From the NCBI GenBank assembly GCA_024278375.1, contig JAJRTH010000058.1:1-39055 (forward strand): a stretch of 39,055 bases of DNA. The letters are read 5' to 3'. The notes beneath the pieces were generated by a model that was not told where the DNA came from, made no database searches, and saw only the letters and a list, made by a program, of their open reading frames with translations. Shown here in pieces: positions 1,075 to 37,160 of the stretch; position 1 is the stretch's first letter, and each line of letters opens with the position of its first letter. The DNA is from an archaeon. GTDB taxonomy: Archaea > Thermoplasmatota > Thermoplasmata > WALJ01. A program made the position numbers and the translations under genes.

Positions 1075-2382
1075 ATGTCAGAGCTGGAATTCCTGAAAGC
1101 TGAGGAACTCCTTAAAGGAGACATGGTAGGTCAGAGAGTGAGGACGAGGGGCTGGATATACCGTACAAGACACAAGGGAAAGATGGTGTTCACAGTGATA
1201 AGGGATTCCAGCGGGATAATTCAGGCAACACTTTTCAAGGGCGATATGGAGGAAGAGAAGGGGTTCGAGGATGCCAAAAAGGCTCTTGTGGAATCGTCCG
1301 TAGAGGTTGAGGGGATACTAGTTGAAGATGCGAGGGCTCCAGGAGGGTTCGAGATTCAGGTCAGGAGATTTCATGTCATACACTTTGCAGAACCATTCCC
1401 GATAACAAAGGACCAGAGCGAAGAATTTCTCATGGATATGAGGCATCTCTGGGTGAGGTCGAGAAAGCTAACCGAGATTGCCAAGATAAAACACTCCGTT
1501 CTTAAGGCTGCAAGGGAGTGGTTCGATGAGCACGGATTCTACGAGGTCACACCGCCGATACTCACCGGAAGCGCTGCCGAAGGCGGAGCGACTCTCTTCG
1601 AGCTCAAATATTTCGGGCAGAAGGCATATCTGAGTCAGAGCGCTCAACTTTACCTCGAAGCCCTGATATTTTCACTTGAAAACGTGTACTCAATAACACC
1701 CAGCTTCAGGGCGGAGAAGAGCAGGACAAGGAAGCATCTCACGGAATTCTGGCATCTCGAGGCGGAGGAGGCGTGGACCGGCCTGGAAGGGAACATGAAG
1801 ATTCAGGAAGAACTGACCGCACACATAGCGCACAGGGTTGCGGAGTGGAACGGAAAGCAGCTTGAGTTCCTCGGAAGAGAGCCGGAGGAGCTGCTGAAAA
1901 TCGAGACTCCGTTTCCCAGATACAGATATGACGAGGCTCTGGAAAAGCTCGCAAAGAAAGGTATTGAGCTCGAATGGGGTGATGATTTCGGAGCGCCGGA
2001 GGAAAGGATGCTTACCGAGGACGAGGAGTTGCCAATTTTCATTACACACTGGCCAAAGGAGGCGAAGGCGTTTTACATGCGCTGGGACACTGAAGACACC
2101 AGAGTGGTTCTAAATAATGACATGCTCGCTCCCGAAGGTTACGGTGAGATATTCGGAGCCAGTGAGAGGGAAACCGATGTGAGGCACCTTATAGAGAGAC
2201 TTGAGGCGGAGGGAGCTAATCTTGATAACTATCGGTGGTATCTGGACCTCAGGAGATACGGTTCCGTGCAGCACTCCGGATTCGGTATGGGTGTAGAGAG
2301 GGTGGTCGCATGGCTTGCAAAGGCCGAGCACATAAGAGATACCATACCGTTCCCAAGGACCATAAACAGGGTCAGACCTTAG
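1075..2382 (+). CDS. asnS: Asparaginyl-tRNA synthetase
   Basis: Class II aminoacyl-tRNA synthetase that charges tRNA-Asn with asparagine in the cytosol. The product has 435 residues, normal for the archaeal enzyme. An N-terminal OB-fold anticodon-binding domain covers about residues 18-105 (VRTRGWIYRTRHKGKMVF). The catalytic core follows with motif 2 (FRAEKSRTRKHLTEFWHLEAE) and the C-terminal motif 3 (GFGMGVERVVAW). The substrate-pocket region EGGATLFELKYFG, the EFWHLEAE stretch and the ending IPFPRTINRVRP are AsnRS-like rather than AspRS-like, where EGGTELF and FPRDPKRLTP would be expected. The start follows a TATA box at leaderless spacing. It ends in TAG and overlaps the convergent protease gene by 11 bp. 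An AspRS with relaxed specificity is less likely but cannot be excluded from sequence alone. Confidence 0.88.
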   Translation: MSELEFLKAEELLKGDMVGQRVRTRGWIYRTRHKGKMVFTVIRDSSGIIQATLFKGDMEEEKGFEDAKKALVESSVEVEGILVEDARAPGGFEIQVRRFHVIHFAEPFPITKDQSEEFLMDMRHLWVRSRKLTEIAKIKHSVLKAAREWFDEHGFYEVTPPILTGSAAEGGATLFELKYFGQKAYLSQSAQLYLEALIFSLENVYSITPSFRAEKSRTRKHLTEFWHLEAEEAWTGLEGNMKIQEELTAHIAHRVAEWNGKQLEFLGREPEELLKIETPFPRYRYDEALEKLAKKGIELEWGDDFGAPEERMLTEDEELPIFITHWPKEAKAFYMRWDTEDTRVVLNNDMLAPEGYGEIFGASERETDVRHLIERLEAEGANLDNYRWYLDLRRYGSVQHSGFGMGVERVVAWLAKAEHIRDTIPFPRTINRVRP

Positions 2383-4099
2383 GCGGCGGAATTTCAGGAG
2401 GAGAAGGCGGTATTCTACTCAGTGACCCGCATCTGGTGCATTTTAAAAGCCCTTTTCCCATGTATTCGGCTTCGATATTCCCACACACATGACATCTGTA
2501 AGGATGCTGGGCATATGGTATTTCTCCGTTTTTCACTCCGAATTTTGGAGTTTCCTGCCAGTAAGGCGGTGGAAGGACGTGTTGTTCACCTTTTCCTGAG
2601 CCCCCGTCATGCCCTTTGTGCATGATGTGGAGAACGAACGCCTTGGAATACAGATAGAAGAAGAAAATGCCTATTATTATGCTCCCTAGGAAGAACAGTC
2701 CTATAACCGCATCCAGTATAAAGGAATCGAACAATTCTGTTGGCATTGAAAGATAATTGGTCGCAAAATGCAGGGTTATTGATGCCCAGATTCCCCATTT
2801 CGCATACAGATATCCCATGGCCAGACCGCCGACCATGGCAGGCAGGACCTTGAATACATCCCATCCGGCAATCATATGAACGAAGCCGAACATACCTGCA
2901 CAGAAGAAGATGAGTACCATAACCGTTCGGTCCATCCGGAACCTCCCCCCTATTATGTATCTGTAGAGGGGCGCTTCCCTTTTTCCCCTGTAAAGATGTA
3001 TTATGAGCAGGAAAATCCCGATGAATGGAATTCTGGTTATCATCTCCTCCCAGACGCTTGCTCTGGATAGTTCGTACATCTGCTCCCATAGAGACATCTT
3101 TCCGAACTGCGGTATGGTAGGATTCGGCTCGAAAAGGCCTATTAAAAGATAGAACAGTATGGTGAAGCTTATTGTTGCAAAGAAAAGTGCAGCTATATCG
3201 AAAATACTGCGCTCCGACGGGACTTTTAGTTCGTAACGTTTCAGGGAAGAGAGCGCTGTGCTTGCAATCTTCCTTCCATCTCTTATGAATATGTTGCCCA
3301 CAGAAATAAGGATTGCCGAAACAACGAATAGAAAATAGGCTATAAAAGATGTGCCGGATAGACGGTTGAGAACGACAGGCAGTCCCGGAGGGAGGATTAT
3401 ATAGGTCCATGTCGAACCCTCTTCCGGTATGGCATACTTTCCGGTGAAATCGAGTATTCCGTGGCCGGCGTAATACACCGTTTCCAAACTTATGCTGCTG
3501 TTCTTACCCTCGACACTGACGTTTCCCTTTATCGTGACTGTATAGACTCCCCGGGATGTGCTCTCCGGTTCCATGACCAGTGTGTTTCCGTACCATCGCG
3601 TAGTGTAGGGTAGAGAAGGGTCGAAGGATATGTTCCTCTCTATGCCGCTCCTGTTGACATCCATATTGAAGGCTATCACGATGTGGTTCCTGAAACCGGA
3701 AATGATGGCGTACTCCAGATAGGTCGGCTTTTTCGCTCGAAAGCTGATTTGGTCCGTGAACTCTCCGCAGCCGTACCTCACCGCGTAAACCCTCCCGTTA
3801 TCGAAGGATCCGTTGGGTGTGAAGATTATACGGTTTTCCACGAAATCCAGCGTTCCGTTAATTTCCGGCGTTAGCTCGAAATAAGAGGCGGCTGAACTCT
3901 CGTTGCAACCGTAATAGGGCAGTATCAGATCGGATTCCGTGGATAGGATGGGATTCCTTATACCGTCGACAACCACAGGGACCCCGGCTATTAGGGTCAA
4001 TGTCTCCAGTAGCAGGAGGCCGATGAATGAGAATATCGCCAGAAGACCGATGAGGTTCAGGCCCTTTTTCGGGATTCTCAGAGGATCGCCGCCATTCAT
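2372..4099 (-). CDS. CPBP (CAAX-type) intramembrane protease with ectodomain and C-terminal zinc ribbon
   Basis: Predicted membrane glutamic protease of the CPBP/Abi family. The three family motifs are intact: EExxxR in WEEMITR (E351, E352), FxxxH in FGFVHM (H408) and HxxxN in LHFATN (H444). A first membrane helix lies at about residues 15-38. About 190 residues of predicted beta-rich ectodomain with several N-x-S/T sequons follow, and then the multi-helix protease core from about residue 230. After the last helix, a polar tail carries a four-Cys zinc ribbon (C536, C539, C554, C557) and a Pro-rich end. It begins 2 bp after the pyrE stop, so it is the last gene of carS-pyrE-protease. CPBP members cleave prenylated proteins or act in bacteriocin immunity; the substrate here is unknown. 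The ectodomain plus zinc ribbon is atypical for the core family. Confidence 0.82.
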   Translation of the reverse strand: MNGGDPLRIPKKGLNLIGLLAIFSFIGLLLLETLTLIAGVPVVVDGIRNPILSTESDLILPYYGCNESSAASYFELTPEINGTLDFVENRIIFTPNGSFDNGRVYAVRYGCGEFTDQISFRAKKPTYLEYAIISGFRNHIVIAFNMDVNRSGIERNISFDPSLPYTTRWYGNTLVMEPESTSRGVYTVTIKGNVSVEGKNSSISLETVYYAGHGILDFTGKYAIPEEGSTWTYIILPPGLPVVLNRLSGTSFIAYFLFVVSAILISVGNIFIRDGRKIASTALSSLKRYELKVPSERSIFDIAALFFATISFTILFYLLIGLFEPNPTIPQFGKMSLWEQMYELSRASVWEEMITRIPFIGIFLLIIHLYRGKREAPLYRYIIGGRFRMDRTVMVLIFFCAGMFGFVHMIAGWDVFKVLPAMVGGLAMGYLYAKWGIWASITLHFATNYLSMPTELFDSFILDAVIGLFFLGSIIIGIFFFYLYSKAFVLHIMHKGHDGGSGKGEQHVLPPPYWQETPKFGVKNGEIPYAQHPYRCHVCGNIEAEYMGKGLLKCTRCGSLSRIPPSPPEIPPPKV

Positions 4100-5228: not shown

Positions 5229-5298
5229 GTGCCCCTTCCTGTACCAACATACTTAAATAAAAGGCCGAAAAGTGTACCAACTTTCTTATAAGTGCCCC
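5229..5298 (+). promoter_or_regulatory. Duplicated promoter/operator element upstream of the VIT-vWA gene
   Basis: Two copies of TGTACCAAC followed by CTTA and an AT-rich TATA-like stretch start at 5240 and 5273, a period of 33 bp or about three helical turns. Each unit has a TATA-like core (CTTAAATA and CTTATAAG). A GTGCCCC heptamer flanks the pair on each side (5229-5235 and 5292-5298). The region looks like a tandem promoter with repeated operators. It lies between the divergent carS and VIT-vWA genes. Confidence 0.5.
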
Positions 5299-5326
5299 AT
5301 ATATTGATGGATGTGGAGGCGAAAAT

Positions 5327-7798
5327 ATGCTCACAAAAACCGAACCGAAAAACGGTGCATTCGGCACCGGTGAAAAAGCAGGGAACCCGGGGAGAGGAGG
5401 ACTTGTATTTGCAGTGCTGGTTTCCATTGTGCTGCTGACCTCTACTGGCATACTTGATACGGGAATGGGGGACGAGCCCTATATCTATACGGACAGACCC
5501 TACATCGAATATCTGAACATATCCGCGGACATAGACAACAACTACGCAGTAACTGAGATAGAAGAGGTTCTGGTGAACCCTTTTGCCTATGCGGTGTACG
5601 GAACATTTGTGTTCGAGATGCCCGAAAAGGCATTCATCTCCAACTTCTCTCTGACCATAGACGGCGAAACATACTATGCGAAGATAGTGTCCAGCGAGGA
5701 GGGAAAGGAGGAGTTTCAGGAGGCCGTGCTCAACGGAACGGATGCCGGGCTCGTGGAATCCTATGGAAGTAACATATTCTCGTATTCCATAAGCCTGTCG
5801 GCGTATCAGAAAATCTCAGTGGGGCTCAGATACGAGGAGTACATAGAGAAAAAACTGGGTGGTTATGAGTACGTTATACCATTCTCAGGCGCACATTACT
5901 CATATGCGGACAGTCTATCGGTGGATGTTTCGATAAAATCCAGAATGGCGGTAATAGATGTCGGGGTGGAGAACTATCCCGATGCCAGCACAATCTGGGT
6001 ATCGTCCAATGAGGCGAGGGTCGGGTATTATACCATGTACTCCGCACCGTCGGAGGATTTCATCGTGAACTACGAGCTCGGAGCGCCGCCGACCAACGGA
6101 ACGCTTCTCAACTACAAGTACGACGGAACCCAATACTTCATGCACATCTTCTCCCCGCAGATAGGGGATCTGGGAGGGAAGTCCATGCCGAAGGACATAA
6201 TCTTTGTTCTGGATAAATCCGGCTCGATGTCAGGTGAGAAGATAGCACAGTTGAAGGATGCGTTTTCCGAGATAATAGGGCAGCTGCCCGAACAGGATAA
6301 CTTCAACATAATCCTCTTTGACAGCGCAATAACCGTTTACAGGGACGAACTTCTGCCGGCTTCCGAGGGAAATAAGGCAGATGCGGTGAGTTACATAAAC
6401 AGCATCGAAGCTGGCGGGAGCACAAACATAAACGATGCCATGATCACCGCCCTGAATATGTTCGAAACATCCGAAACAAGGGTTCCGATAATTGTGATGT
6501 TGACGGACGGACTTCCTACCTCTGGAATAACAAATACCATGGCCATAAGGCAGAATGTCCTGAACAACAATACTGCAGGCGTTTCCATATTCTGTCTGGG
6601 CTTCGGATTCGATGTGGACTTCGACTTTCTGAAGGCAATGGCTCTTGAAAACGGAGGCATAGCCATAAGGATATACGAAGGACAGGACGCGGGTGAGCAG
6701 ATAACCGACTTCTACGACACGATATCCACACCTCTCCTAAGAGGTCTGAGCTTCAGATATTCGGAGGGAGCCTGCGAGATTTATCCGACCTATGTCGACC
6801 AGATGTTCGATGGGACCGAGGTCGTGGTCGTGGGAAAATATAACGGAGAATCGGATGATATTACGGCGAATGTAGCGGCCACATCATGGGAAGGCACAGT
6901 AAACTTCGAAGAAACCTTCGTCCTGAGCGATAACACCGGGTACGATTTCATACCCAGATTCTGGGCATATGCCAAGATTCGATACCTTCTGGACGAGATA
7001 GCCGTGGAAGGAGAGGTGCCATCTCTCGTGGAGAATGTGACCTCGCTTGCACTGGAATACGGTTTCGTGACTCCTTACACATCGCTTCTCGTGAAACCAC
7101 TGATTGACGGCGGCGGAAGCACCGAAACTACCGTAGAGGAGGATACATACGCGGATTCGTCGCCCTCGAATTCCGCCACGGCAGGAGCTCAGGCATCTCC
7201 AATATACACCAACAGCACCCGCCCTCTGCTATCTCAGGGCGCTCCGATACCGGAAAACAGTCCGGATACCCTCCCAACCCAGTCAGAAGGCTCCTCAAAC
7301 CTTGGCTCGTTCTCTCTTCTCATCCTCCTGATCGTCGGCACCGCTCTCGCAATAATCGGATATGCCAAGATACAGAAGTACAGGCTGCTAGAGCAGGAAA
7401 GAAGGGAGATGATATACAACTATGTTCAGGAGCACCCCGGAGAGCATTTCAGAGCGATACAGAGGGCTCTCGGTCTGGAGGTCGGAGTTCTTTCCCATCA
7501 TCTGAACAAGCTGGAAAAAGGGGATTACATCCGATCGAGACAGGACGGCATATACAGGCGTTTCTACCCGATAAACTCGAAGATAGACATGAAAATGATA
7601 CTGAGCGATGTGGAGAACAGGATACTGACATGGATAAAAAGGCATCCCGGCAGTTCTCAGAAGGAAATAGCAAATAATCTGAAACTATCGAGAAAGGTTG
7701 TGAACTATCACCTGAAAATACTCAGAGATGCGGGTTTCGTAAGAACGGTGAAGGACGGCAGAAAGATACTCTCCTATCCGAACGGCGAGGAATTCTAA
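5327..7798 (+). CDS. Membrane receptor-like protein: VIT + vWA ectodomain, one TM helix, two cytoplasmic winged-helix domains
   Basis: An 823-residue protein with an unusual order of parts. It has a short Lys-containing N-terminus, a membrane or signal helix at about 25-45, and a VIT (vault/inter-alpha-trypsin) domain at about 55-190. The von Willebrand A domain spans about 290-455 and has an intact MIDAS (DKSGSMSG from D296, plus TDGLPTSG). A Ser/Thr/Pro-rich linker follows at about 595-655, then a membrane helix at about 658-680. Two winged-helix DNA-binding domains end the protein at about 690-750 and 762-820 (QKEIANNLKLSRKVVNYHLK is the second recognition region). Topology suggests the VIT-vWA part is outside and the DNA-binding part inside, a transmembrane one-component regulator. 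The start has a GGAGG site 10 bp upstream. The repeated promoter element may be its own target; that is inference. Confidence 0.85.
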   Translation: MLTKTEPKNGAFGTGEKAGNPGRGGLVFAVLVSIVLLTSTGILDTGMGDEPYIYTDRPYIEYLNISADIDNNYAVTEIEEVLVNPFAYAVYGTFVFEMPEKAFISNFSLTIDGETYYAKIVSSEEGKEEFQEAVLNGTDAGLVESYGSNIFSYSISLSAYQKISVGLRYEEYIEKKLGGYEYVIPFSGAHYSYADSLSVDVSIKSRMAVIDVGVENYPDASTIWVSSNEARVGYYTMYSAPSEDFIVNYELGAPPTNGTLLNYKYDGTQYFMHIFSPQIGDLGGKSMPKDIIFVLDKSGSMSGEKIAQLKDAFSEIIGQLPEQDNFNIILFDSAITVYRDELLPASEGNKADAVSYINSIEAGGSTNINDAMITALNMFETSETRVPIIVMLTDGLPTSGITNTMAIRQNVLNNNTAGVSIFCLGFGFDVDFDFLKAMALENGGIAIRIYEGQDAGEQITDFYDTISTPLLRGLSFRYSEGACEIYPTYVDQMFDGTEVVVVGKYNGESDDITANVAATSWEGTVNFEETFVLSDNTGYDFIPRFWAYAKIRYLLDEIAVEGEVPSLVENVTSLALEYGFVTPYTSLLVKPLIDGGGSTETTVEEDTYADSSPSNSATAGAQASPIYTNSTRPLLSQGAPIPENSPDTLPTQSEGSSNLGSFSLLILLIVGTALAIIGYAKIQKYRLLEQERREMIYNYVQEHPGEHFRAIQRALGLEVGVLSHHLNKLEKGDYIRSRQDGIYRRFYPINSKIDMKMILSDVENRILTWIKRHPGSSQKEIANNLKLSRKVVNYHLKILRDAGFVRTVKDGRKILSYPNGEEF

Positions 7799-9657: not shown

Positions 9658-12600
9658 ATGGCACCGGAAACGACCTCCCCCTCGGAGCGCAATATCGACG
9701 GAATGAGAGATATACTTAACAGCGGTGAGGCGAACAATATGGCAGGCATATTTTATCCGGCTCACGACCTAATGCCTTTCAGGATACGGGACATCCTGCT
9801 TGTGGCCAGCCTCTATGATGCGTTCATTCTCGAGGAGGACCGCGGGCTTTCCGAGCAGATATTCGGCGAGTATATGAGCCTGGGCATATCCTCTCCACCC
9901 CGGGTGAAACTCGTTCCTACGGCTGAAAAGGCCCTTGAAGAGCTTAAAAAGAAGAGGTATGACCTGGTAATTACGATGACACATCTCTTCGATTCGGACC
10001 CTATCGAGTTCGGAAGAAGGATAAAAAGAATACAGTCCGACGTGCCAGTGGTCCTGCTGGTGACCGAAGCGAGGGAGGTCAGGCGCTATTATACTCCGGG
10101 TGAGAATAACGGAATAGACAGGGTTTTTCTCTGGACCGGAGATTCAGCGCTCTTCCTTGCCATAATAAAGCTCTTCGAGGACATGAAGAACGTGGACCAT
10201 GATACGAAATACGGGAGTGTGAGGGTAATCCTTCTGGTGGAGGATTCGCCCCAGTATTACTCGATATTCCTACCTCTCATGTATAAGGAAATAATGGTTC
10301 AGACACAGATGCTCATAGAGGAGAGCGCCAATGAGCAGGAGAAGGTCTGGAGAAAAAGAGCCCGGCCCAAGATACTCCTTGCGGAAACATATGAAGCCGC
10401 TCTCTCAATATATCAGCGGTACAGGGAATACATCATCGGTGTGATAACCGATGTCTCGTATCCTCGTGATGGGGAGAAGGATGACAATGCGGGTTTCAGG
10501 CTGATATCCAACATAGACCCGGATATACCGGTTCTCGTCCAGTCTTCCCAACCGGAACACAGGAAAAAGGCAGAGGATTTCGGTGTCCTATTCGTGGACA
10601 AGAACTCGGACGACCTTATATATGAGTTCAGGGGATTTCTGAAAGAAAAACTCGGTTTCGGTAAGTTCGTTTTCAGACTTCCGGACGGTCCTGTTGTCGG
10701 GGAAGCCTCGAATATAAGGGAATTTATAGAGATGATAAAAACCGTGCCCGCTGAATCACTTACCTATCACGGTAGAAAGAATCAGTTTTCCTCCTGGTTG
10801 CTGGCCAGGGGAGAGATAGAGCTCGCCCGCCGCCTCAGGCCGAAAAAGATATCCGACTTCGAGAACGGTGAGGAAATGCGGGCGTATCTGACAAGAGTCT
10901 TCGAGGAGGCGGAGAAGAAGAAAAGCAGAGGAGTCATATCCGACTTCTCCACAAAGGCGTTCATATACGAGGGTACGATAACAAGGTTCGGCGGCGGCTC
11001 TCTTGGCGGAAAGGGAAGGGGAATTGCATTTCTGACATACCTGTTCCAAAAGACCAACTTTCCGGCCAGATACGGCAGATACGGGCTTCGCATTCCCTCC
11101 GCCTTCGTCATAGCCACCGGCGAATTCGACAGCTTCATAGAGGCCAACGGTCTGCATGACATAAGGAACAAGGGGCTTTCGGACAGAGATATCATGGAAA
11201 TTTTTCTTGAGGCGGAGCTCTCGGAGCATCTAATGGGAGCGCTCGAAGAATATCTTTCATTCGTGAAGGAGCCAATAGCCGTCAGGTCATCCAGCCTGTT
11301 CGAGGACTCCTATAATCAGCCCTTTGCCGGAATATATTCCACATACCTTCTGCCAAACAACGAGAATAGCAATGAAAAGAGGTTAAAACACCTATCCGAT
11401 GCCATAAAGCTAGTCTATGCGTCCACATATTTCAGAAGAGCGAGAGCCTACATAAAGACGACCTTGCACACCACCGACGAGGACAAGATGGCCGTAGTCA
11501 TACAGAAACTTGTTGGCAACCGCTTCGACGATGTTTTTTACCCTGTTTTCTCAGGCGTCGCACAATCCTACAACTTCTATCCGCAACCTCCGCTGAAAAG
11601 AGAGGACGGCATAGTGAATCTGGCTCTAGGACTCGGCAAGATCGTGGTGGAAGGGGGGAATTTTCTGACGTTCTCACCGAAGAGGCCCCGGGTCATTCTC
11701 GGATTCTCGAGCATAAAGGACATGCTCAACAATTCACAGAACCGATTCTATGCGCTTAACATGAGCGACAAGGACTTCGATTTGAGGAAGGGTGAGGACA
11801 GCACCATCAGAGAACTCTACATATCCGATGCGGAAGAGCACAGGGACATAATGAAGTGGGCTGCGAGCATCTATGACCCCCAGGACGATGTGCTCAGAGA
11901 TAGTATGGATGCCGAAGGATACAGAATAATAACCTTCGCTCCCATACTCAAATATGACATGTATCCTCTGCCTCGCATACTGCAAGAGGTGCTCGACCTT
12001 TGCCAGATGGCCATGGGTGGTGCCGTTGAGATAGAGTTCGCCGCCAGGCTTAACGACGAGAGGCATCCTGAACTCCACATATTGCAGATAAGGCCAATAC
12101 TCACCATGAAAAGACATATAGATGTGGAGTCCTTCGCACCGGAGAGCAGGGAGAAATACCTCGTATATTCCAGCAATGCTCTGGGAAACGGAGTTCTCAC
12201 GAACATCAGAGATATAGTCTTTGTCCACAGAAAGAGGTTTGAAAGGGGCAAGACGGTTGAAATAGCAGGGGAGATAGGAGAGATCAACGCGATGCTGGAT
12301 GAGACCCCATATATCCTGATCGGTCCCGGAAGGTGGGGAACAAAGGACAGGTGGCTCGGAATTCCCGTGGAATGGGACCAGATATCGAACACAAGAGTCA
12401 TGGTTGAAACGCCGATGGAGGACCTGAGGGTGGAATTTTCGCAGGGTTCTCACTTTTTCCACAATATAGCCTGCCTGAATATCCCCTACCTCACGGTGGA
12501 TTATAGAATGAAAGAGAACTTCATAGACTGGGAATGGCTGGAACAGTTGACTCCCGCCAAAGAGACGGAACATATTGTGCACATCCGCCTCGAAAGACCT

Positions 12601-12663
12601 CTGGAGGTACGGGTGGATGGTAACACAGGCCGTGGTGCGATATTGAAGGAGAGCGAAAACTGA
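9658..12663 (+). CDS. Two receiver-like domains fused to a PEP-synthase-type ATP/pyruvate-binding domain
   Basis: A 1001-residue soluble protein. The N-terminal half holds two response-regulator-like domains. The first (about 40-175) has Met107 where the phosphoacceptor Asp is expected in DLVITM. The second (about 190-335) keeps VEDSPQYY at 194-201 and an acceptor-like Asp265 in ITDVSYP. From about 440 to 815 comes the PPDK/PEP-synthase N-terminal (ATP-grasp) domain, with GGGSLGGKGRG near 445-455, AVRSSSLFEDS near 541 and LQIRPIL near 808. No swivelling phosphohistidine domain (TSHAAI type) or C-terminal PEP barrel follows. Instead there is a roughly 180-residue domain with GPGRWGTKDRWLGIP and SQGSHFFHNI. 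It is therefore unlikely to be a classical PEP synthase and more likely a signalling protein or a kinase/phosphotransferase. Similar long proteins occur, from memory, in Bacteroidetes. Confidence 0.8.
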   Translation: MAPETTSPSERNIDGMRDILNSGEANNMAGIFYPAHDLMPFRIRDILLVASLYDAFILEEDRGLSEQIFGEYMSLGISSPPRVKLVPTAEKALEELKKKRYDLVITMTHLFDSDPIEFGRRIKRIQSDVPVVLLVTEAREVRRYYTPGENNGIDRVFLWTGDSALFLAIIKLFEDMKNVDHDTKYGSVRVILLVEDSPQYYSIFLPLMYKEIMVQTQMLIEESANEQEKVWRKRARPKILLAETYEAALSIYQRYREYIIGVITDVSYPRDGEKDDNAGFRLISNIDPDIPVLVQSSQPEHRKKAEDFGVLFVDKNSDDLIYEFRGFLKEKLGFGKFVFRLPDGPVVGEASNIREFIEMIKTVPAESLTYHGRKNQFSSWLLARGEIELARRLRPKKISDFENGEEMRAYLTRVFEEAEKKKSRGVISDFSTKAFIYEGTITRFGGGSLGGKGRGIAFLTYLFQKTNFPARYGRYGLRIPSAFVIATGEFDSFIEANGLHDIRNKGLSDRDIMEIFLEAELSEHLMGALEEYLSFVKEPIAVRSSSLFEDSYNQPFAGIYSTYLLPNNENSNEKRLKHLSDAIKLVYASTYFRRARAYIKTTLHTTDEDKMAVVIQKLVGNRFDDVFYPVFSGVAQSYNFYPQPPLKREDGIVNLALGLGKIVVEGGNFLTFSPKRPRVILGFSSIKDMLNNSQNRFYALNMSDKDFDLRKGEDSTIRELYISDAEEHRDIMKWAASIYDPQDDVLRDSMDAEGYRIITFAPILKYDMYPLPRILQEVLDLCQMAMGGAVEIEFAARLNDERHPELHILQIRPILTMKRHIDVESFAPESREKYLVYSSNALGNGVLTNIRDIVFVHRKRFERGKTVEIAGEIGEINAMLDETPYILIGPGRWGTKDRWLGIPVEWDQISNTRVMVETPMEDLRVEFSQGSHFFHNIACLNIPYLTVDYRMKENFIDWEWLEQLTPAKETEHIVHIRLERPLEVRVDGNTGRGAILKESEN

Positions 12664-13114: not shown

Positions 13115-15823
13115 TTAGAAGGAGGACTCTCCCTCTTTTTCTTCCAGAGTGAAGCCCGGTTCTTCGGTCTCTTCCGGTGGGATCTCTTCAGGCACTGTCT
13201 CTTCTTCAACCATCGGCTCTTCAGGCACTGTCTGAGGTGTTTCCACGGTCTCGTAGGAGTCTGGCTGATGTTTCTTCCTCTTGCCTCCCCGGGAACCTGC
13301 GAGCGCAACTGCGACTATTATCAGCAGTATCACCAGAAGTATTATTCCGAGAAGCATCAGGTTCTCATCGCTTATGCCGCCTGTTTCTACTGCCTCGACC
13401 GCATGATAGGGTGTGCCCGGATTGGTCGATCTTATCGTTATCTCCTGTGTTTCCAGCATCCAGCCGGGTCCGTCCCCATAGGAGTCCACATAGTTTATCG
13501 CCACATCGATGACATAGGGTCTGCCCTCGACCAGGTTTATGTTGGTCATCATCCTGAAGCTTAGTGTAACCGACTCACCCGGTGCCAGGTTGTCTGCCTT
13601 CATGACCCATATCTGTGCCGTTGGCGAATTGAAAACTCCTTCGATATAAAGGGCCAGATCCACGATATCCTTGGCGTCGCTTATGTTGAGCTGTTCAAGA
13701 GTAACTCCACTGTACTCTGTGCTCTTTGAGGACGTCTTGTTGAGGCTTCCGTCCTCGAGATACTCGTAACCATACCAGCCCCAGCCAGGCCAGTATCCGC
13801 TCTCGTTGTAATACCATCCGTTCGGAACAGACACCATCTTGTTGTTGTCATTGCTGGATATGGCGCTCACGAATCCATCTATCACATCCCAGCTGTATCC
13901 GACGTTTCCGGGTATCGTGACAAAGACGTCTCTGGCCGTGTCATCTCCCAGGTTCTCTACTGTCAGGTTGAGGTAGAATATCTTGCCGGGCTCTATGTCT
14001 CCGGTAACGAAACTGGTTATCACGAGTTCGGGACCGAATCCTCTGACCTCGACAACAGCGTCTATGGTCGTGTTCGTCCACATGGTCGTGTCGACATTTC
14101 TGCCGGATACCGTTATTTGAACCGTATATATGCCGGGCATCGTCTCCGGATTGAGGTCAACATACCATGTCATCCATGCGGAGCCTCCCGCACTGACATA
14201 ATCGTCGGAATTCCATATGTCGTTCTCTACGGTCGTGGCCTCATGGTCCAGCGGATTCCAGAAAGGAGTGCCTGGTCCGACATGGAGCGTGGCTCTGAGA
14301 TCGGAGTAATCGACCATCTCATAGTTGTTTATGTTTGTGCCTATCTCCACATATGTCAAATCGTTCCAGCTTAGGTCGAAATAGTCGTCCCATGTATCTA
14401 CGTTCTCTATCTTATCAGCCGTGAAATCCGGATTGTTATCGATGACCCCTATCATAACATAGGGTCCTGCAATCCACTCATCTGCCAGAAGGCTGCATCT
14501 CGGTACGAGAGGTGTGTTCGGATTGCCGTCGTCATCCCACCACCAGAGATCGACATCCACGTAGTGTGTGGGATTGTCGGTCGCACCGTCGTCAAAGAAT
14601 GTCGCGGACCAGTCGAAGAGTATCCTGTGCTGTCCGTCCTGGACATACGGGTCTATTGCAACGAACCATTCGCCTGTTGTCGATTCGCCAATTCCTAGAG
14701 AGTCTACCTCAATCTCCGTGACTCTCACCGGATTCTGTGTGTTACTTCCCGTATTGCCCTCGTAGAAGTCAGCCGGTGCGAAGAAGAAGTATCCATCGTA
14801 ATCCAGATCTATAACCAAATTTCTGAGGTCAACGTTTCCGGTGTTCGTGAACCTGACTCCGAGCGCACTTATCGAGTCCGTTCCCTGCTCTATTGTTATC
14901 TCGTCACCTGTCAGAGCGGCTTCTATTACCGGGGTGAATTCCACTGTTATATCCAGCGTTCCGGTTTCTGTGCACCAGATTCCGTCATTGTTGTAGTACT
15001 GCACCTGGTAATCCACAGTGTATATTCCCGGGGGCATGTCCCTGTCAACATCGACCCTGAATCCTATTGTATCGGTCTCCACATCGCCGGGTATCCATCC
15101 TGTTGTGCTGTCGAATGTTATGCCAGTCGGTATATTCGAAAGGTTCAGGTAGAGATTGTGCACACCATTCCACACATCATCCACATCTATGTTGAGGGGT
15201 GTGAATGTCTGTCCTGCATAGAGAACTGGATAGGCATCGGTGACATCTATGTTGGGAGCTATCTCAAATTCCATGTACTCGTATTCCGTTGCAGCGACCT
15301 CAGGTGTGGCCGCACCGCCGTCAGCATCATCGTCATATTCGTAATCTATCTTGAAAGTGATGTTATAGGTTCCTGGGGGCACATTTGCCTGGTTCGGATC
15401 TATGTCAAACTGGAAATCTATGGTCCACTGACCGCTCCATGAAGGTATGGTGTAGCCTGTCCCTGTCGGTCCGTCATCACTGTTCACGTCCCAGTGAATG
15501 GCATTTGTGGTTATCTGTCCATCTGGACCCCTCACAGACTGGGCTGTTATCATGGCTCTATTTACTCCGACTCCAAGTCCGGGATCGTCTACTACATATA
15601 TCCATAGTCTTATAGTCCTATCCTGCTGTCCAGGATAAAATGGATCAGGTGTTGCGGAATATGTGCCTATTTCGACCATGTTGTCTCCGTTAGCATTCTC
15701 GGTATTTACCGGCACGAGTGTCCATGCTTTCCCTGTCGGCATAGCCGCAAAGAGTGTCGCTATCATTATTACGCCCATCATGAGGGCGATTCCTTTCTTC
15801 ATTTTTTCTGTCTTAATTTTCAT
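13115..15823 (-). CDS. Large secreted, membrane-anchored surface protein with repeated beta-sandwich domains
   Basis: A 902-residue protein with an N-terminal signal peptide (hydrophobic core about residues 10-30, likely cleaved after GKA at 31-33). It is rich in Asp, Thr and aromatic residues. The ectodomain contains several Ig-like or CARDB/NEW3-like units, marked by PPGTYNITF, PPGIYTVDYQV, MPGIYTVQITVSG and LNLTVENLGDDTARDV, and N-x-S/T sequons. A single membrane helix spans about 820-842. The short Arg/Lys-rich stop-transfer segment GGKRKKH and a Glu/Pro-rich cytoplasmic tail (843-902) end the protein. It is probably a cell-envelope or S-layer-associated protein. The promoter has a strong TATA box and a near-perfect AAGGAGG site, unlike most single genes in the window, so high expression is likely. 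Confidence 0.75.
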   Translation of the reverse strand: MKIKTEKMKKGIALMMGVIMIATLFAAMPTGKAWTLVPVNTENANGDNMVEIGTYSATPDPFYPGQQDRTIRLWIYVVDDPGLGVGVNRAMITAQSVRGPDGQITTNAIHWDVNSDDGPTGTGYTIPSWSGQWTIDFQFDIDPNQANVPPGTYNITFKIDYEYDDDADGGAATPEVAATEYEYMEFEIAPNIDVTDAYPVLYAGQTFTPLNIDVDDVWNGVHNLYLNLSNIPTGITFDSTTGWIPGDVETDTIGFRVDVDRDMPPGIYTVDYQVQYYNNDGIWCTETGTLDITVEFTPVIEAALTGDEITIEQGTDSISALGVRFTNTGNVDLRNLVIDLDYDGYFFFAPADFYEGNTGSNTQNPVRVTEIEVDSLGIGESTTGEWFVAIDPYVQDGQHRILFDWSATFFDDGATDNPTHYVDVDLWWWDDDGNPNTPLVPRCSLLADEWIAGPYVMIGVIDNNPDFTADKIENVDTWDDYFDLSWNDLTYVEIGTNINNYEMVDYSDLRATLHVGPGTPFWNPLDHEATTVENDIWNSDDYVSAGGSAWMTWYVDLNPETMPGIYTVQITVSGRNVDTTMWTNTTIDAVVEVRGFGPELVITSFVTGDIEPGKIFYLNLTVENLGDDTARDVFVTIPGNVGYSWDVIDGFVSAISSNDNNKMVSVPNGWYYNESGYWPGWGWYGYEYLEDGSLNKTSSKSTEYSGVTLEQLNISDAKDIVDLALYIEGVFNSPTAQIWVMKADNLAPGESVTLSFRMMTNINLVEGRPYVIDVAINYVDSYGDGPGWMLETQEITIRSTNPGTPYHAVEAVETGGISDENLMLLGIILLVILLIIVAVALAGSRGGKRKKHQPDSYETVETPQTVPEEPMVEEETVPEEIPPEETEEPGFTLEEKEGESSF

Positions 15824-28193: not shown

Positions 28194-29300
28194 TCACCTA
28201 TCTATATCCGGAGGACATATATCCAGATTGAACATCAGAGGTGCCACATCGGCAATCCTCTGACCTATCACCATATCCTCGAAGACCTGTATTCCATGGC
28301 TTATGGACGGACCGCGAACCTGCAATCTGTATGGTTTGGTACCTCCGTCGCTGACCAGATAATATCCGAACTCCCCTTTTGAGCTCTCCACCTTTCCATA
28401 GGCCTCTCCGGGAGGTATCTTCCAGTAAAGAGGGTTCGGAATATCCGCCTTTACCTCTCCTTTCGGCATCTTCCTTAGCTTTGCGGTTATCTGTCTGACA
28501 AGTTTTATGCTCTCCTCTATTTCGATCCTCCTTATCATCGCTCTGGCATAGGAATCCCCTTCTGTCATGGTAGGCACATGGAAATCAAGCTCCTCATATG
28601 CGGCATAGGGGTCATCCTTTCTCACATCCGCTCTGACGCCGGTTGCCCTGAGATTTGGTCCTGTAACCTCCATTTTGAGCGCATATTCTCTGGTCATCAC
28701 GCCTATTCCCTCGGACCTCTTTATGAAGAGTTTGTGATTGAAGAATATCTCGTCGTAGTCCTTCAGCCTAGCCTCTATGTGGTCCATGACTTTGTCAACC
28801 CTGTCCTCAAAACCGGGTGGAGTGTCCCATCTGACGCCACCCGGAAAGTTGTAGATATGGTATACCCTGGCTCCGGTGAGCTCCTCAAAGAGGTCGAGTA
28901 TGTAATCCCTGTCGCCAAAGGTCCAGTTCGGAAGTGTATAGAGGCCGAGAGAGCCGGAATAACCTCCGAAATAGAAGAGATATGCCGCTATTCTCGATAG
29001 CTCCAGAACAAGAGAGCGTATATATCTTCCTCTCTCCGGGACCTCGATATCTGCAAGATGTTCCACAGCTATGGAATACGCCGCCTCGCTGTGGTCAGGG
29101 TCAGGAACACAGATACGACACACTATCGGGGTTGCCTGTATCCACTGCCTCTGCTCTAGGAATTTCTCGAATCCTCTGTGTAGAAAGCCGGGAATTGCCT
29201 TTGCCCACACTATCGTATCTCCGTCCACCTTTACCCTGACACTGAAATTTCCGGTTACTCCGGGGTGCTGCGGGCCGAAGAACAGGTCGAACTCCTTCAT
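28194..29300 (-). CDS. mbxL: Catalytic large subunit, NuoD/MbxL type, with altered Ni-Fe ligands
   Basis: A 368-residue group-4-type large subunit, starting with the classical FGPQHPG. Hydrogenases coordinate Ni-Fe by two CxxC motifs. Here the first site reads VCRICVPDPDH: C64 is kept and Asp67 stands where the second Cys is expected, with an extra C61. The C-terminal site reads LDICPPDIDR: C362 is kept and Asp365 replaces the last Cys. Two of four ligands are therefore lost in a matched way, arguing against H2 chemistry. Thermococcal Mbx/Mbs, which reduces sulfane sulfur, is reported to have modified motifs, so this subunit is more likely of that type. Its ATG overlaps the mbxK stop. No hydrogenase-maturation gene lies in the window. 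Confidence 0.88.
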   Translation of the reverse strand: MKEFDLFFGPQHPGVTGNFSVRVKVDGDTIVWAKAIPGFLHRGFEKFLEQRQWIQATPIVCRICVPDPDHSEAAYSIAVEHLADIEVPERGRYIRSLVLELSRIAAYLFYFGGYSGSLGLYTLPNWTFGDRDYILDLFEELTGARVYHIYNFPGGVRWDTPPGFEDRVDKVMDHIEARLKDYDEIFFNHKLFIKRSEGIGVMTREYALKMEVTGPNLRATGVRADVRKDDPYAAYEELDFHVPTMTEGDSYARAMIRRIEIEESIKLVRQITAKLRKMPKGEVKADIPNPLYWKIPPGEAYGKVESSKGEFGYYLVSDGGTKPYRLQVRGPSISHGIQVFEDMVIGQRIADVAPLMFNLDICPPDIDR

Positions 29301-29791
29301 TTCTCACTCTCCTCTATGAACGGTATCTTGTCGTACTTCTCCCTGACATATTTTCTGGTGTCGAAGTCCTTTCTAAGTGGTGGAGGGCCTTCCCAGTCCT
29401 CGAGGATGAATGGCGTTAAATTGGGGTTTCCCTCAAAAACTATGCCCATCATCTCATGAGCCTCTCTCTCATGCGTCATGGCTATGGGCCACAGGTCCAT
29501 GAATGTCCTGTAAACCGGTTTATCTCTCGGAATTCGGACCTTCAGGAACACGGCAACCTTTTTCTCATAGGACCAGAGATTGTAAACAAGCTCGAACTGA
29601 TTCTCTTTCATCCAGTCCACATATTCTATGGATGCGAGATGAGTGAATCCCATGTTTTTCAGGAATTTTGCAGCCTCATATCCCTTCTCCGCCGGAACTT
29701 TCACAGAGATCCTCCTCTCCCTGAGTACTTTAACCTCTGCACCCGGAAACCTTTCTATCTCAGCCTTAATCTGGTTCTCCTTTTCCGGCAT
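29297..29791 (-). CDS. mbxK: NuoC/MbxK-like subunit
   Basis: A 164-residue soluble subunit of the 30-kDa NuoC class. Recognisable are an N-terminal alpha/beta domain (HLASIEYVDW) and the conserved block THEREAHEMMGIVFEGNPNL followed by LTPFILEDWEGPPPLRKDF, the NuoC signature. It bridges MbxL to the rest of the arm and has no cofactor of its own. I chose the ATG at 29791 because it overlaps the mbxJ stop in the typical TAATG arrangement; a GTG at 29800 would add three residues. It overlaps mbxL by ATGA. Confidence 0.9.
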   Translation of the reverse strand: MPEKENQIKAEIERFPGAEVKVLRERRISVKVPAEKGYEAAKFLKNMGFTHLASIEYVDWMKENQFELVYNLWSYEKKVAVFLKVRIPRDKPVYRTFMDLWPIAMTHEREAHEMMGIVFEGNPNLTPFILEDWEGPPPLRKDFDTRKYVREKYDKIPFIEESEK

Positions 29792-30348
29792 TACCACCAC
29801 TTCCTGAAGACCTTTTCCTGATTGGCCTTATATTGTTCGTAATACTTTTTATATCTGAGATATCCATCAGCCTTTCCTTCCTGTATCAGGTCCATGAGTT
29901 TCACGAAAGCTCTGGCGACCGCCTGAGGTCTGGGCATGCAGCCCGCTATGTAAAGGTCCACGGGAATGTACTTGTCCAGATGATTGATCGTCGCATAGGA
30001 ATCCCAGTAAGGGCCGCCGTTGACAGGGCAGGAACCGAAGGCTATAACATATTTCGGGTCCAGCATCTGCTCGTATGTTCTTATTATCCTTTTCAGGGTC
30101 TTTATGTTAACGTATCCAGTTATCAGGAGTATGTCGGACTGCCTCGGAGTCACGAAAGGATGCATTCCGAACCTTTCCATATCATATCTCGAGGTCATCA
30201 GAGGAGGCAGCTCTATACCGCCACATCCGGTACAGAAATGAACCATCCATAGGGACTTTTTCGTGGCCCATCTTGCAGTGGTGCCGAACTTTATCATCTC
30301 CATATCGCCGTACCTTTCGACCTGCTGAATTTCCACAGTTTCTTCCAT
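29791..30348 (-). CDS. mbxJ: Small subunit with proximal [4Fe-4S] cluster (NuoB/MbxJ-like)
   Basis: A 185-residue small subunit. The four cluster ligands are C39 and C42 (FCTGCGGIELPP), C107 (AFGSCPVNGGPY) and C137 (IAGCMPRPQA), as in NuoB. It hands electrons from the MbxN clusters to the active site in MbxL. I placed the start at ATG 30348, which has AGGTGAG 5 nt upstream. The open frame continues upstream to 30429 inside mbxM, which I take as a frame shadow. Confidence 0.9.
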   Translation of the reverse strand: MEETVEIQQVERYGDMEMIKFGTTARWATKKSLWMVHFCTGCGGIELPPLMTSRYDMERFGMHPFVTPRQSDILLITGYVNIKTLKRIIRTYEQMLDPKYVIAFGSCPVNGGPYWDSYATINHLDKYIPVDLYIAGCMPRPQAVARAFVKLMDLIQEGKADGYLRYKKYYEQYKANQEKVFRKWW

Positions 30349-30368
30349 ATTCTCACCTGTGTTCTCCT

Positions 30369-31301
30369 CTACCAAGTGCTCACCCCCAGAGCATACGCCA
30401 GCCCGATTATGGCGAGTATCGTGGGCCACTTCCAGTAGAAGGCGAAGGCCTGATCTATCCTGAACCTGAGCATGACTGCGTTAATCAGTAAGGCTATAAG
30501 GAACATGAGGAAGACCAGAAGTATCCATAGAAGGAAGTTGAGAATCATTCCTATCTGGGTTGTCGGGTCGAACAGTATTGCGCCTCCTAGGAATAGGTCG
30601 ACGAAGAGCGCTCCCTCGACGACCACAGCTATGGCGTGCCAGAGAAAGAGCATTCCGAGATGCTTTCCACCGTACTCCACCATCGGCCCTGTGGCCACCT
30701 CATGGGGTGCGACAGGCTGGTCGAAGGGCTTCTCTCCGAACTGACCCTGCAGGGTTATGTCGGCAACCAGAGCGGATATCGGCAGTAGAAGTATGGCCCA
30801 TGTCCCCCTCTGCTTTTCTACTATCTCAGCAAGGGATGTGGTGTTGTAGTATATCATTACCGAGAGAACTGAGAGCACGAAGGGAAGCTCATAGGCCATC
30901 ATCAGGGCCAGAGCTCTCATGACACCGATGCCAGCGTTCGGATTTCCCGAAGCTCCGGCTCCGAGAGCCATTCCGAGACCGGATATGACAAAGAGATACA
31001 TTATGACTATCAGGTCGCCGTGGAAGCTCAGGAGCCTGAATCCACCCATTGGTATGAACAGCATAGTAACGAGAACGCCGACTATGGCGAATATCGGACC
31101 TATATCATATATCCAGTTGTGGGTTATGCTCTCTCTCTTTGAAAATAGCTTCATGACATCTATGAACTGCTGGTAAACCGGCGGACCGATTCTCCGGTGA
31201 ATTCTTGCTGTTATCTTCCTCTGGATACCCATGAAAAAGAGGCCCAAGACGGTTACGAAGAAGGGCATGATTATCAGTATTGCAATATCTGTGAGGTTCA
31301 T
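30369..31301 (-). CDS. mbxM: NuoH/MbxM-like membrane anchor subunit
   Basis: A 310-residue polytopic subunit with about eight helices, linking the hydrophilic arm to the ion-pumping module. NuoH-type signatures are GIQRKITARIHRRIGPPVYQ near residue 24, FSKRESITHNWIYDIGP, and MAYELPFVLSVLSVMI. The conserved Glu/Arg-containing loops that couple to MbxL are present. I chose ATG 31301 because it overlaps the mbxH' stop (ATGA); ATG 31313 would add four residues. It ends in TAG, 20 bp before the mbxJ start. Confidence 0.9.
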   Translation of the reverse strand: MNLTDIAILIIMPFFVTVLGLFFMGIQRKITARIHRRIGPPVYQQFIDVMKLFSKRESITHNWIYDIGPIFAIVGVLVTMLFIPMGGFRLLSFHGDLIVIMYLFVISGLGMALGAGASGNPNAGIGVMRALALMMAYELPFVLSVLSVMIYYNTTSLAEIVEKQRGTWAILLLPISALVADITLQGQFGEKPFDQPVAPHEVATGPMVEYGGKHLGMLFLWHAIAVVVEGALFVDLFLGGAILFDPTTQIGMILNFLLWILLVFLMFLIALLINAVMLRFRIDQAFAFYWKWPTILAIIGLAYALGVSTW

Positions 31302-33208
31302 AGCCACCACCATCCTGCTGCAATCATAACAGCCAGAAATGCCATCACATAATACACATAGTGCTGCACATCTCCGGTGTAAATCCTCCTTATTCCCTCG
31401 GAAATCGTCTCATAACCCAGTCCGAAGGCATCATACAGCCTCTCAAGTCTTTTCCTGAGATATGGCTCGAACATCCTCTCCAAGGGCCTGTAGAAGTTCA
31501 TGGAGTAGTGGAGATATACATTCTCATGGTGTTCATATATCTCTCCTGCCATGTATGTGTCGTGCTGGTCCACCTTCTTCGCCTTCTTACCGAATACAAA
31601 GAGCGCAAAGGCAACCATCATGGCACCCATCATCGCAAGCATGACCACGAGGGCATTGTAGGCCCCGAAATCCATGCCCAGATATACGGAATAGGTGGAG
31701 ACATTCAGAGGAGCGATTCCGACATATGATTCCACAGAAGCTATCACGCTAAGAGGTATTCCGGGAGTTATTCCGAAGAGCACGAGTATGCCGGCCAGAA
31801 ACATCATGGGCACGGTTATCAACGGGGACGGGTCCTTCGCATCTTTCAGTCTATCCGGAAGCTGCCCGAGGAATGCGGACTTGAGTATTCTGAAAGAATA
31901 AAGGAAAGAGCCGACGCTGGCTATGAAAGCAAGAGGAGCGATGAAAACGAACTTCTTTTCTATAGCAGCCTCATAGAGCAGCCACTTCGAACCGAATCCT
32001 CCGGTTATCGGAATCCCTGCCAGAGCGAATATTGCTATGAGCATTGTAAGGAATGTGATCGGCATCTTCGTTCCCAGACCGCCCATATCGCTGAGCTTTC
32101 TTGAGCCTGTTGTGTATATGAGCACACCCGCGCCCATGAACAGGACCGTCTTGAATATCGCATGGTTGAGCGCATGGTAAAGTCCGCCAGCCACTCCTAT
32201 GGATGTCCCTATGCCTATGCCCATCATCACATACCCTATCTGGCTTATGCTCGAATATGCCAGAAGCTTCTTTATGTCATCCTGTGCTATCGCATACAGG
32301 GTGGCTATGACCGATGTTAGGGACCCAAGTATCGCTATAAGGTATCCGAAGTCAGATATCCCACGGAAGGTTCCGAATTTTGCAAGTGCCGGCAACCCGA
32401 CTATTGCATACATGAAGAGCATAAGACCGTATGGTCCAAGCTTTGAGAGCGCTCCCGAGAACACAGGCGTGAATGAATCGGGAGCCTCTGAGTATGCAGG
32501 GGGTGCCCATACATAGAACGGCAGGGTAGCTGCCTTTACTGCAAAGCCCACGGCCAGAAGTCCCAGAGTTATGGCAAGGAACAATGGATTGGCTCTGCCG
32601 AGAGTTCCAGCAAGAGCTGAAAACTGTATGGTGCCGAATCTGGAGTATATCATGGCTATGCTCAGCAGTATGGCGTATGCCCCGACACTGCTTATTATCA
32701 TGTAGTTCAGTGCGGCCCTGTACGCCCTCTTACCCGCGAGGGTTATCAGAAGATATGAGCTCAGGGTCATTATCTCCCAGAATATGAACAGGGACAGAAG
32801 GTCAGAGGAAAAAACAACACCCAGCATAGAGCCCATGAGTACCAGACTTAGGCCATAAAACGCATTCTCCCTTTCGATTCTCTCTTTGAGACCGACAGCA
32901 TACATCATACCGAGGGCGGAGACCATCGAAACCATGAGGGCGAAGAACCATGATAGGATGTTCAGTGATAGAGTGAACCTTATGCCGGTAGGAGTAACGG
33001 AAGGCCTCCATGATACGCTCGACCACTCGCCGTAGGATAGGAAGACGAGCAGGGCAACGAACACGGATATCAGGATCGCAAGGATGTTTCTGGCGCTGGT
33101 TGAGGCCTTTCCGAGGACATATGTCAGGAGAGCGCCCAGGAAAAGTATGGATACCATCATGTCGGGCCTAATGAGTGGTCCGAGCAAACTAGTGAGTGAT
33201 TCCAGCAT
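31298..33208 (-). CDS. mbxH': Second MrpD/NuoL-type antiporter subunit (MbxH')
   Basis: A 636-residue antiporter-like protein with about 14-16 helices. The core carries the broken-helix and lysine landmarks of the family: NYMIISSVGAYAILL, VGFAVKAATLPFYVWAPPAYSEAP with the conserved Lys, KKLLAYSSISQIGYVMMG and GLYHALNHAIFKTVLFMGAG. The roughly 150-residue C-terminal extension contains a hydrophilic stretch (KKAKKVDQHDTYMAGEIYEH) and a final helix near 618-634, as in subunits with a lateral extension. A second MrpD-like gene directly after mbxH distinguishes mbx-type operons from mbh operons. The ATG follows the mbxH TAA at 33209-33211 directly, with GGAGGT upstream. Confidence 0.88.
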   Translation of the reverse strand: MLESLTSLLGPLIRPDMMVSILFLGALLTYVLGKASTSARNILAILISVFVALLVFLSYGEWSSVSWRPSVTPTGIRFTLSLNILSWFFALMVSMVSALGMMYAVGLKERIERENAFYGLSLVLMGSMLGVVFSSDLLSLFIFWEIMTLSSYLLITLAGKRAYRAALNYMIISSVGAYAILLSIAMIYSRFGTIQFSALAGTLGRANPLFLAITLGLLAVGFAVKAATLPFYVWAPPAYSEAPDSFTPVFSGALSKLGPYGLMLFMYAIVGLPALAKFGTFRGISDFGYLIAILGSLTSVIATLYAIAQDDIKKLLAYSSISQIGYVMMGIGIGTSIGVAGGLYHALNHAIFKTVLFMGAGVLIYTTGSRKLSDMGGLGTKMPITFLTMLIAIFALAGIPITGGFGSKWLLYEAAIEKKFVFIAPLAFIASVGSFLYSFRILKSAFLGQLPDRLKDAKDPSPLITVPMMFLAGILVLFGITPGIPLSVIASVESYVGIAPLNVSTYSVYLGMDFGAYNALVVMLAMMGAMMVAFALFVFGKKAKKVDQHDTYMAGEIYEHHENVYLHYSMNFYRPLERMFEPYLRKRLERLYDAFGLGYETISEGIRRIYTGDVQHYVYYVMAFLAVMIAAGWWWL

Positions 33209-34663: not shown

Positions 34664-34995
34664 TTCAGATCCCTCACTTCAGAAGAGTTGAGCGTCCTAT
34701 AGTGCCGGTAAACCCTTATCGCCACCGATAGGGCGAGAGCGGTAACGGAGACGCCTATAACTATGTTCGTCAGTATCAGAGCCTGTGGAAGAGGGTCCAC
34801 CACATTCGAAGGGGAAACTCCCGGTTGTATTATCGGTGCGGTCTTCCCGTTAATGTATCCTATGGAAATCAGCAAAAGGTTCACACCGCTGTCTATGATG
34901 CTTATCCCCAGTATCATTTTTATCAGATTCTTCTTTACCATCAGCATGTATATTCCGACAGCTATCAGGGCAGCAGAGGCGAAGTAGAACATCAT
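34657..34995 (-). CDS. mbxG: MrpC/NuoK-like subunit (MbxG)
   Basis: A 112-residue protein with three membrane helices, the NuoK/MrpC fold. Signatures are the N-terminal IAVGIYMLMVKKNLIKMILG and IIDSGVNLLLISIGYINGK, and the DPLPQALILTNIVIGVSVTA helix with the conserved PQALILT motif. It is part of the Na+/H+ antiporter module of the complex. It overlaps mbxF by 4 bp and mbxH by 7 bp. Confidence 0.92.
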   Translation of the reverse strand: MMFYFASAALIAVGIYMLMVKKNLIKMILGISIIDSGVNLLLISIGYINGKTAPIIQPGVSPSNVVDPLPQALILTNIVIGVSVTALALSVAIRVYRHYRTLNSSEVRDLKW

Positions 34996-35684: not shown

Positions 35685-35922
35685 GCTCATACCTCTCTGT
35701 TTTCTTTATTGCAAGAACGAATACTGCGGTCGTCAGTCCGGCCCCTATCGCAGCCTCGGCCATGGCCACATCAGGTGCCTGTAAGATATAGAAAAGGAGG
35801 GAGACTATCAGGCTCACAGCCATGGTTGCCACAACAGCATACATCAAATCCCTCGTCTCAGCAGCATAGATGGAGAATATTATCATCACAATGACCAGGA
35901 AGCCCACAGCGACCTCTATCAC
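35677..35922 (-). CDS. mbxD: MbhD/MrpA-C-like small membrane subunit (MbxD)
   Basis: An 81-residue three-helix protein of the DUF4040/MbhD type, corresponding to part of the C-terminal region of MrpA. The signature is FYILQAPDVAMAEAAIGAGL, which carries the conserved Asp and Glu of the antiporter path. The start is GTG at 35922, overlapping mbxC by 4 bp. Confidence 0.9.
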   Translation of the reverse strand: MIEVAVGFLVIVMIIFSIYAAETRDLMYAVVATMAVSLIVSLLFYILQAPDVAMAEAAIGAGLTTAVFVLAIKKTERYEHD

Positions 35923-37035: not shown

Positions 37036-37041
37036 TGATTC

Positions 37042-37110: not shown

Positions 37111-37160
37111 GATTATAGAAATGGAAATTCGCAATTTTTCTCTTATATATTACCGAAATT

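Follow-up and report, generated by a model that had tools for sequence, protein, structure and literature searches.

A predicted VIT-vWA surface protein of Thermoplasmata fused across the membrane to tandem winged helices, with a candidate tandem operator at its own promoter

Transmembrane transcription regulators (TTRs), as described in those sections of PMC10269533 on which we draw, carry a DNA-binding domain and a membrane helix in one polypeptide, single-pass forms being the commonest. Among archaea, ArnR/ArnR1 of Sulfolobus is a membrane-bound one-component regulator with paired boxes at its target promoter (PMC6396743). Here we describe a gene on contig JAJRTH010000058.1 of an archaeon of the class Thermoplasmata, in a stretch of 39,055 nucleotides (the window), where an intact open reading frame (ORF) at 5327-7798 of the plus strand encodes a protein of 823 amino acids that joins a VIT-vWA ectodomain, a membrane helix and two winged helices. 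Surface proteins of the VIT-vWA type usually serve adhesion or binding. This protein is probably a membrane-anchored one-component transcription regulator, the tail of which would bind a tandem operator at its own promoter and thereby control its own gene. To our knowledge, studies of membrane-bound transcription regulators in archaea are few, and most of these regulators have no known signal and no known DNA target.

All four Pfam domains of the protein score far over the cut-off (Table 1). The metal-ion-dependent adhesion site (MIDAS) of the vWA domain, with the pattern DxSxS, T and D, is complete (D296-S298-S300, T366 and D394) and unchanged across five orthologues in an alignment, and metal binding is predicted from these residues. 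The ectodomain, about 600 residues between two hydrophobic segments, carries seven N-glycosylation sequons and is acidic (31 K/R vs 87 D/E over 605 residues), and the tail is basic (28 K/R vs 17 D/E over 143 residues); because this charge distribution fits the positive-inside rule, the tail is predicted to be cytoplasmic and the ectodomain to lie outside, the charge distribution being the evidence for this placement. An AlphaFold model of the tail (residues 650-823, 24 aligned sequences, predicted local distance difference test score (pLDDT) 86) has a single unbroken helix, 657-702, leading out of the membrane into winged helix 1, and two folds of the helix-helix-helix-wing type, most of both winged helices scoring over 90; a full-length model built from five sequences (pLDDT 48) was too weak and was set aside. 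Foldseek with the tail model gave ArsR/SmtB/MarR-type, Z-alpha and tandem winged helices among its matches, with ScpB and ESCRT-II also among them, and phmmer against PDB sequences matched winged helix 1 to a putative DNA-binding protein (5duk) and winged helix 2 to Z-alpha domains. We infer that the tail binds DNA. An earlier note, made from the letters of this DNA, had proposed a VIT domain, a vWA domain whose MIDAS is intact, a Ser/Thr linker, a membrane helix and tandem C-terminal winged helices; this layout is borne out throughout, including a winged-helix fold within residues 690-820, where the model places both winged helices, and a tail on the inner side.

The same fused layout is found at full length in two further genomes, G003 (locus L005, 91% identical) and G002 (L006, 67%), and in G013, which belongs to another family, a 58% identical protein (L027) reaches winged helix 1, where its contig ends (the genome of the window is G000; L numbers denote loci from other genomes). 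Since three other metagenome-assembled genomes (MAGs) carry the fusion, an artefact of assembly or binning as its source is ruled out. The window's own family also supplies a natural control: the orthologue in G001 (L009 and L012), the VIT-vWA part of which is 53% identical and which stands in the same neighbourhood as the window gene (TctA and a PPDK_N gene), stops past the membrane helix at RRRKAL and lacks the winged helices. In a tree of the VIT-vWA part the four fused proteins group together (82/85) with G001 directly outside, which fits one fusion event, perhaps with transfer between families, the support being moderate and G013 a fragmented MAG. Other VIT-vWA proteins of the class considered as further fusions (L046, L056-L060 and L075) are all without the tail, and among 400 Thermoplasmata genomes no other VIT-vWA protein was found to have one like it.

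Upstream of the fused gene stands a candidate tandem operator, two TGTACCAAC boxes each with a TATA-like box 3 bp downstream. These are the only two copies of the exact motif in the window's genome, and in the five genomes of the window's family TGTACCAACNTNCTTA occurs without mismatch only before this gene, in G000, G002 and G003. Across the 400 genomes of the class, the exact pair at 33-bp spacing was found in G000, G002, G003 and G013, always directly before the fused gene; the single further match to the tandem pattern, in G073, has one mismatch and an unrelated interior and was taken as chance. As a gene and its promoter travel together, the co-occurrence of operator and fused gene alone proves little. 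Two points appear stronger. First, conservation of the 52-bp operator block exceeds that of the gene, with identities of 98% in G002 and 83% in G013 against 71% and 62% for coding DNA, the upstream flanks being unrelated. Second, no such element was found in the promoter of the G001 orthologue, so that operator and tail are absent together. When a wider regulon was sought in the window's genome, sites at 1-2 mismatches were no more frequent than for a reversed-pattern control. A 12-mer repeat search of upstream regions scored within shuffles, the motif having emerged only from a side-by-side comparison of upstream sequences. The earlier idea of 5229-5298 as the place where the tail acts receives independent support, in that within this stretch lies a tandem element without a second copy in the genome, better conserved than coding DNA and related to the promoter boxes of other tail genes. 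The tail may bind to it.

Table 1. Features of the fused gene and its upstream region (coordinates in the window; residues of the 823-aa protein)
Feature	Coordinates	Strand	Basis
Operator box 1 (candidate), TGTACCAAC	5240..5248	+	Motif comparison; conserved in four genomes
TATA-like CTTAAATA behind box 1	5252..5259	+	Sequence; 3-bp gap as in relatives
Operator box 2 (candidate), TGTACCAAC, 33 bp past box 1	5273..5281	+	Exact pair search
Probable TATA box CTTATAAG	5285..5292	+	Inferred from place relative to start codon and box 2
Shine-Dalgarno-like GGAGG	5315..5319	+	Sequence; conserved in L005, L006, L027
VIT-vWA-membrane helix-double winged helix protein	5327..7798	+	Intact ORF; Pfam
N-terminal hydrophobic segment, residues 25-43 (signal peptide or anchor)	5399..5455	+	Hydropathy 2.4
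VIT domain, residues 61-169	5507..5833	+	Pfam PF08487, 3.7e-23
VWA domain, residues 290-461, with MIDAS	6194..6709	+	Pfam PF00092, 6.2e-22
Conserved post-VWA segment, residues 462-590, common to TIGR03788	6710..7096	+	NCBIfam match
Low-complexity Ser/Thr/Pro/Gly stalk, residues 591-657	7097..7297	+	About half S/T/P/G; aligns poorly
Transmembrane helix, residues 659-680	7301..7366	+	Hydropathy 2.5; AlphaFold
Winged helix 1, residues 691-749	7397..7573	+	HTH_HVO_0163_N, PF24266, 4.7e-17; model
Winged helix 2, residues 762-806	7610..7744	+	HTH_24, PF13412, 1.3e-16; model

In the mechanism that we propose, the VIT-vWA ectodomain would bind, via its MIDAS metal site, a partner outside the cell or in the envelope, and its state would pass via the stalk and the single helix running from the membrane into winged helix 1, so that the VIT-vWA part would set the activity of the tail. 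The two winged helices would bind the two TGTACCAAC boxes, which lie about three helical turns apart, while the chain stays anchored in the membrane. Because the bound tandem operator would overlap the promoter of its own gene, the receptor would control its own level. Repression in the bound state seems slightly likelier than activation because box 2 adjoins and partly covers the expected transcription factor B recognition element (BRE) of the proximal TATA box; activation would be favoured by boxes lying upstream of the BRE, an arrangement seen in ArnR (PMC6396743), and box 1 is compatible with both. What is sensed may be a ligand or a force, in line with the earlier note's reading of the protein as a one-component transmembrane system, a reading that the present analysis supports; dimerisation, the signal and the sign of regulation are likewise put forward as proposals. 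The same protein and operator could conceivably work by proteolysis, with the ectodomain shed, the chain cut by an intramembrane protease and the freed double winged helix reaching the DNA. A single-pass layout with a flexible stalk would suit shedding and a gene for an Rce1-like membrane protease lies nearby (2372-4099), but we know of no Rce1-like proteins that serve as site-2-type proteases for such substrates, no cleavage motif was identified in the protein, and a helix continuous from the membrane into winged helix 1 favours direct coupling; we thus regard proteolytic signaling as rather unlikely. Besides its Rce1-like protease domain, the membrane protein encoded by that nearby gene, on the minus strand, has a zinc-ribbon-like motif, CHVCG/CTRCG, at the C-terminus.

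Tails made of a membrane helix and a double winged helix are widespread in Thermoplasmata. A survey of architectures, which the earlier note had suggested, placed homologous tails behind FG-GAP, PKD, NosD beta-helix, CarboxypepD_reg and unnamed ectodomains, those of L028, L029, L031, L036, L041, L044 and L052 being 32-46% identical to the tail in the window. Because the tail stands behind such varied ectodomains, the fused protein can be seen as a member of a mix-and-match receptor family, and its VIT-vWA ectodomain is the new part, transmembrane transcription regulators being a kind of protein already known. The earlier note knew of no characterised protein with this layout, and a literature search found no paper on the layout, the tail or the motif in the open-access literature. 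The layout is nevertheless less isolated than the note suggests, as the tail is common to many Thermoplasmata proteins and the TTR class has been named (PMC10269533). The receptor of G028, whose tail (L028, 44%) is the most similar to that of the window outside the orthologues, has upstream of it (L144, reverse strand, ~1950-1990) the sequence AAAAAGTGTTCCAAT, near the window's AAAAGTGTACCAAC; the closest tail thus comes with the closest box.

The upstream regions of other tail genes hold a related box, (C/T)GTACAAAT-N3-TTTATATA, the window type being TGTACCAAC and the type of family f11 CGTACAAAT. With at most 2 mismatches, the related-box pattern has 29 matches in seven f11 genomes vs 1 for the reversed control. 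The pattern YGTACMAAY-N3-YTTAWAW has 86 matches class-wide: 68 in families f1, f7, f11, f14, f15, f16, f18, f22 and f27, where the reversed-pattern control has 0, and 18 in all other families, where the control has 28. In a set of 60 tail-gene neighbourhoods, a strict YGTACMAAY stands at most 200 bp upstream of 15 of the 53 tail genes with other ectodomains (7/9 in f11 and 8/44 in other families), as against 5 of 2093 background windows, an enrichment with binomial p ~1e-17 and ~1e-13, respectively, uncorrected for the kinship of the genomes. The box is thus statistically linked to the tail family. Many of these positions lie ~44 bp upstream of the start, and none of 17 ORFs for tandem winged-helix paralogues without a long ectodomain (a few of them present in two overlapping loci) has the box. 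Among 59 sites, 31 are preceded at 12 bp by a TACMAA half-site and 19 at 33 bp by another box; two half-sites per unit would suit a chain with two winged helices. In five f14 genomes, which lay outside the motif definition, and in G162, the site stands directly after the tail gene and before the next gene. With a short receptor of this family directly ahead of the operator, as in f14 and G162, the arrangement may mark a receptor-target pair. At L126-L130, L132, L095 and L096 (f11, f14 and f18) the operator precedes genes for secreted proteins resembling solute-binding proteins, SBP_bac_5 being confirmed in L095.

Several points weigh against linking these boxes to the tails. The nine families of the 68-vs-0 count were picked afterwards for carrying tail genes, the motif rests in part on f1 and f11, and counts over related genomes are not independent. 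In the window itself, the half-site at -12 differs from TACMAA. A strict upstream box is missing for many tail proteins (those of f2, f23, most of f15 and f24), so that specificity must vary or other regulators must act. Furthermore, the f11 box also precedes genes without a tail, so that another factor could read it. The operator might then belong to a different transcription factor controlling this type of receptor, with the winged-helix tail active elsewhere or on other proteins. This would accommodate the f11 genes without a tail that follow the box, among them an SBP_bac_5 gene and a beta-propeller gene, yet it sits poorly with an exact box that the window's genome has only at the fused gene, with the joint absence of box and tail in G001, and with control-level counts in families without such tails; we consider it quite unlikely. 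Returning to the tail as the reader of the operator, a more specific proposal would be an archaeal adhesion receptor, in which MIDAS-dependent contact with a surface or a neighbour would be turned into transcription via the vWA domain, the continuous helix and the winged-helix pair on a single private operator, with an operator grammar (half-sites of the TACMAA type spaced by 12 bp, units spaced by 33 bp and a 3-bp gap to TATA) common to a class of Thermoplasmata surface receptors with interchangeable ectodomains. We hold this fuller version to be possible but doubtful.

The genes around the fusion bear on one further explanation, namely that the winged helices, instead of binding DNA, serve as scaffold or as modules for protein-protein contact, in a protein that would be a surface adhesin or would act as co-chaperone to a MoxR ATPase. 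Downstream of the fused gene of G002 come a DUF4129 gene, whose product is a membrane protein, and a gene for a MoxR-type AAA+ ATPase (L006, 3403-4350 and 4898-5875), MoxR proteins often partner VWA proteins (PMC9976466), and winged helices can bind proteins, as the ScpB and ESCRT-II fold matches recall. However, the MoxR neighbour is found in G002 only, a TctA-like transporter standing downstream of the fused gene in the window and in G003, so that no conserved neighbouring MoxR ATPase, as in a MoxR-vWA co-chaperone pair, is seen; the VWA domain is predicted to lie outside the cell, apart from MoxR; and the best matches of the tail are DNA-binding families. This makes a scaffold role very improbable.

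The fused gene and its operator occupy different neighbourhoods in G002 and in the window and G003. Elsewhere in the window, 9658-12663 encodes a protein that joins a response-regulator-like region to an ATP-binding domain of pyruvate phosphate dikinase (PPDK_N) and is likewise found beside the VIT-vWA gene in G001 and G003. On the minus strand, 13115-15823 encodes a secreted protein of 902 amino acids, possibly an envelope protein, in which weak matches of the Ig-like and CARDB-like kinds come together with a membrane helix and an acidic tail at the C-terminus, and 28194-38889 is a run of hydrogenase/Mrp-antiporter-like membrane subunits, judged by eye, that includes a membrane protein with a bacterial PH domain (37615-38889).

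Taken together, this locus offers both a readable ectodomain, a vWA domain with its MIDAS, and a concrete candidate operator, and the outside of the cell may here speak directly to one gene. It also bears on the question of how a membrane-fixed protein finds its DNA, as the site may here be a single locus. The same tail and a related promoter element across varied ectodomains may open up a whole family of archaeal surface receptors. As far as can be told, a VIT-vWA ectodomain on this kind of protein is new, as are a candidate tandem operator private to the gene and an operator grammar common to receptors with different ectodomains.

How does the fused protein compare with what has been described? 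Its VIT-vWA region and the next segment match those of VIT-vWA surface proteins such as the marine sortase target protein TIGR03788 (E 8.3e-59, best stretch 243-589), but at 199.6 bits the match is far below the family cut-off of 551.65, and two winged helices stand where the sorting C-terminus would be. The G001 orthologue shares its VIT-vWA part and neighbourhood, but neither its winged helices nor its operator. Other Thermoplasmata proteins with a membrane helix and a double winged-helix tail share the homologous tail and, in some cases, YGTACMAAY, whereas their ectodomains are of the FG-GAP, PKD, NosD beta-helix or CarboxypepD_reg kinds. ArnR/ArnR1 resembles it as an archaeal membrane-bound one-component regulator with paired promoter boxes; however, ArnR carries a helix-turn-helix at the N-terminus and two membrane helices at the C-terminus, together with a HAMP-like domain and a sensor domain, and has no large ectodomain, and its boxes are inverted repeats at flaB (PMC6396743), as against the order VIT-vWA, membrane helix, winged helices seen here. 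The likeness to TTRs lies in one chain with a DNA-binding domain (Pfam and model), at least one transmembrane region (25-43, 659-680), a domain placed outside by its topology and a DNA-binding part that charge distribution would put in the cytoplasm. That the protein may alter transcription from the membrane upon a signal is suggested by the candidate operator. The sections of PMC10269533 drawn on here make no mention of a VIT-vWA ectodomain, and the fused protein differs from the TTRs described there in its N-terminal ectodomain, its C-terminal tandem winged helices and what appears to be a dedicated tandem operator in its own promoter region.
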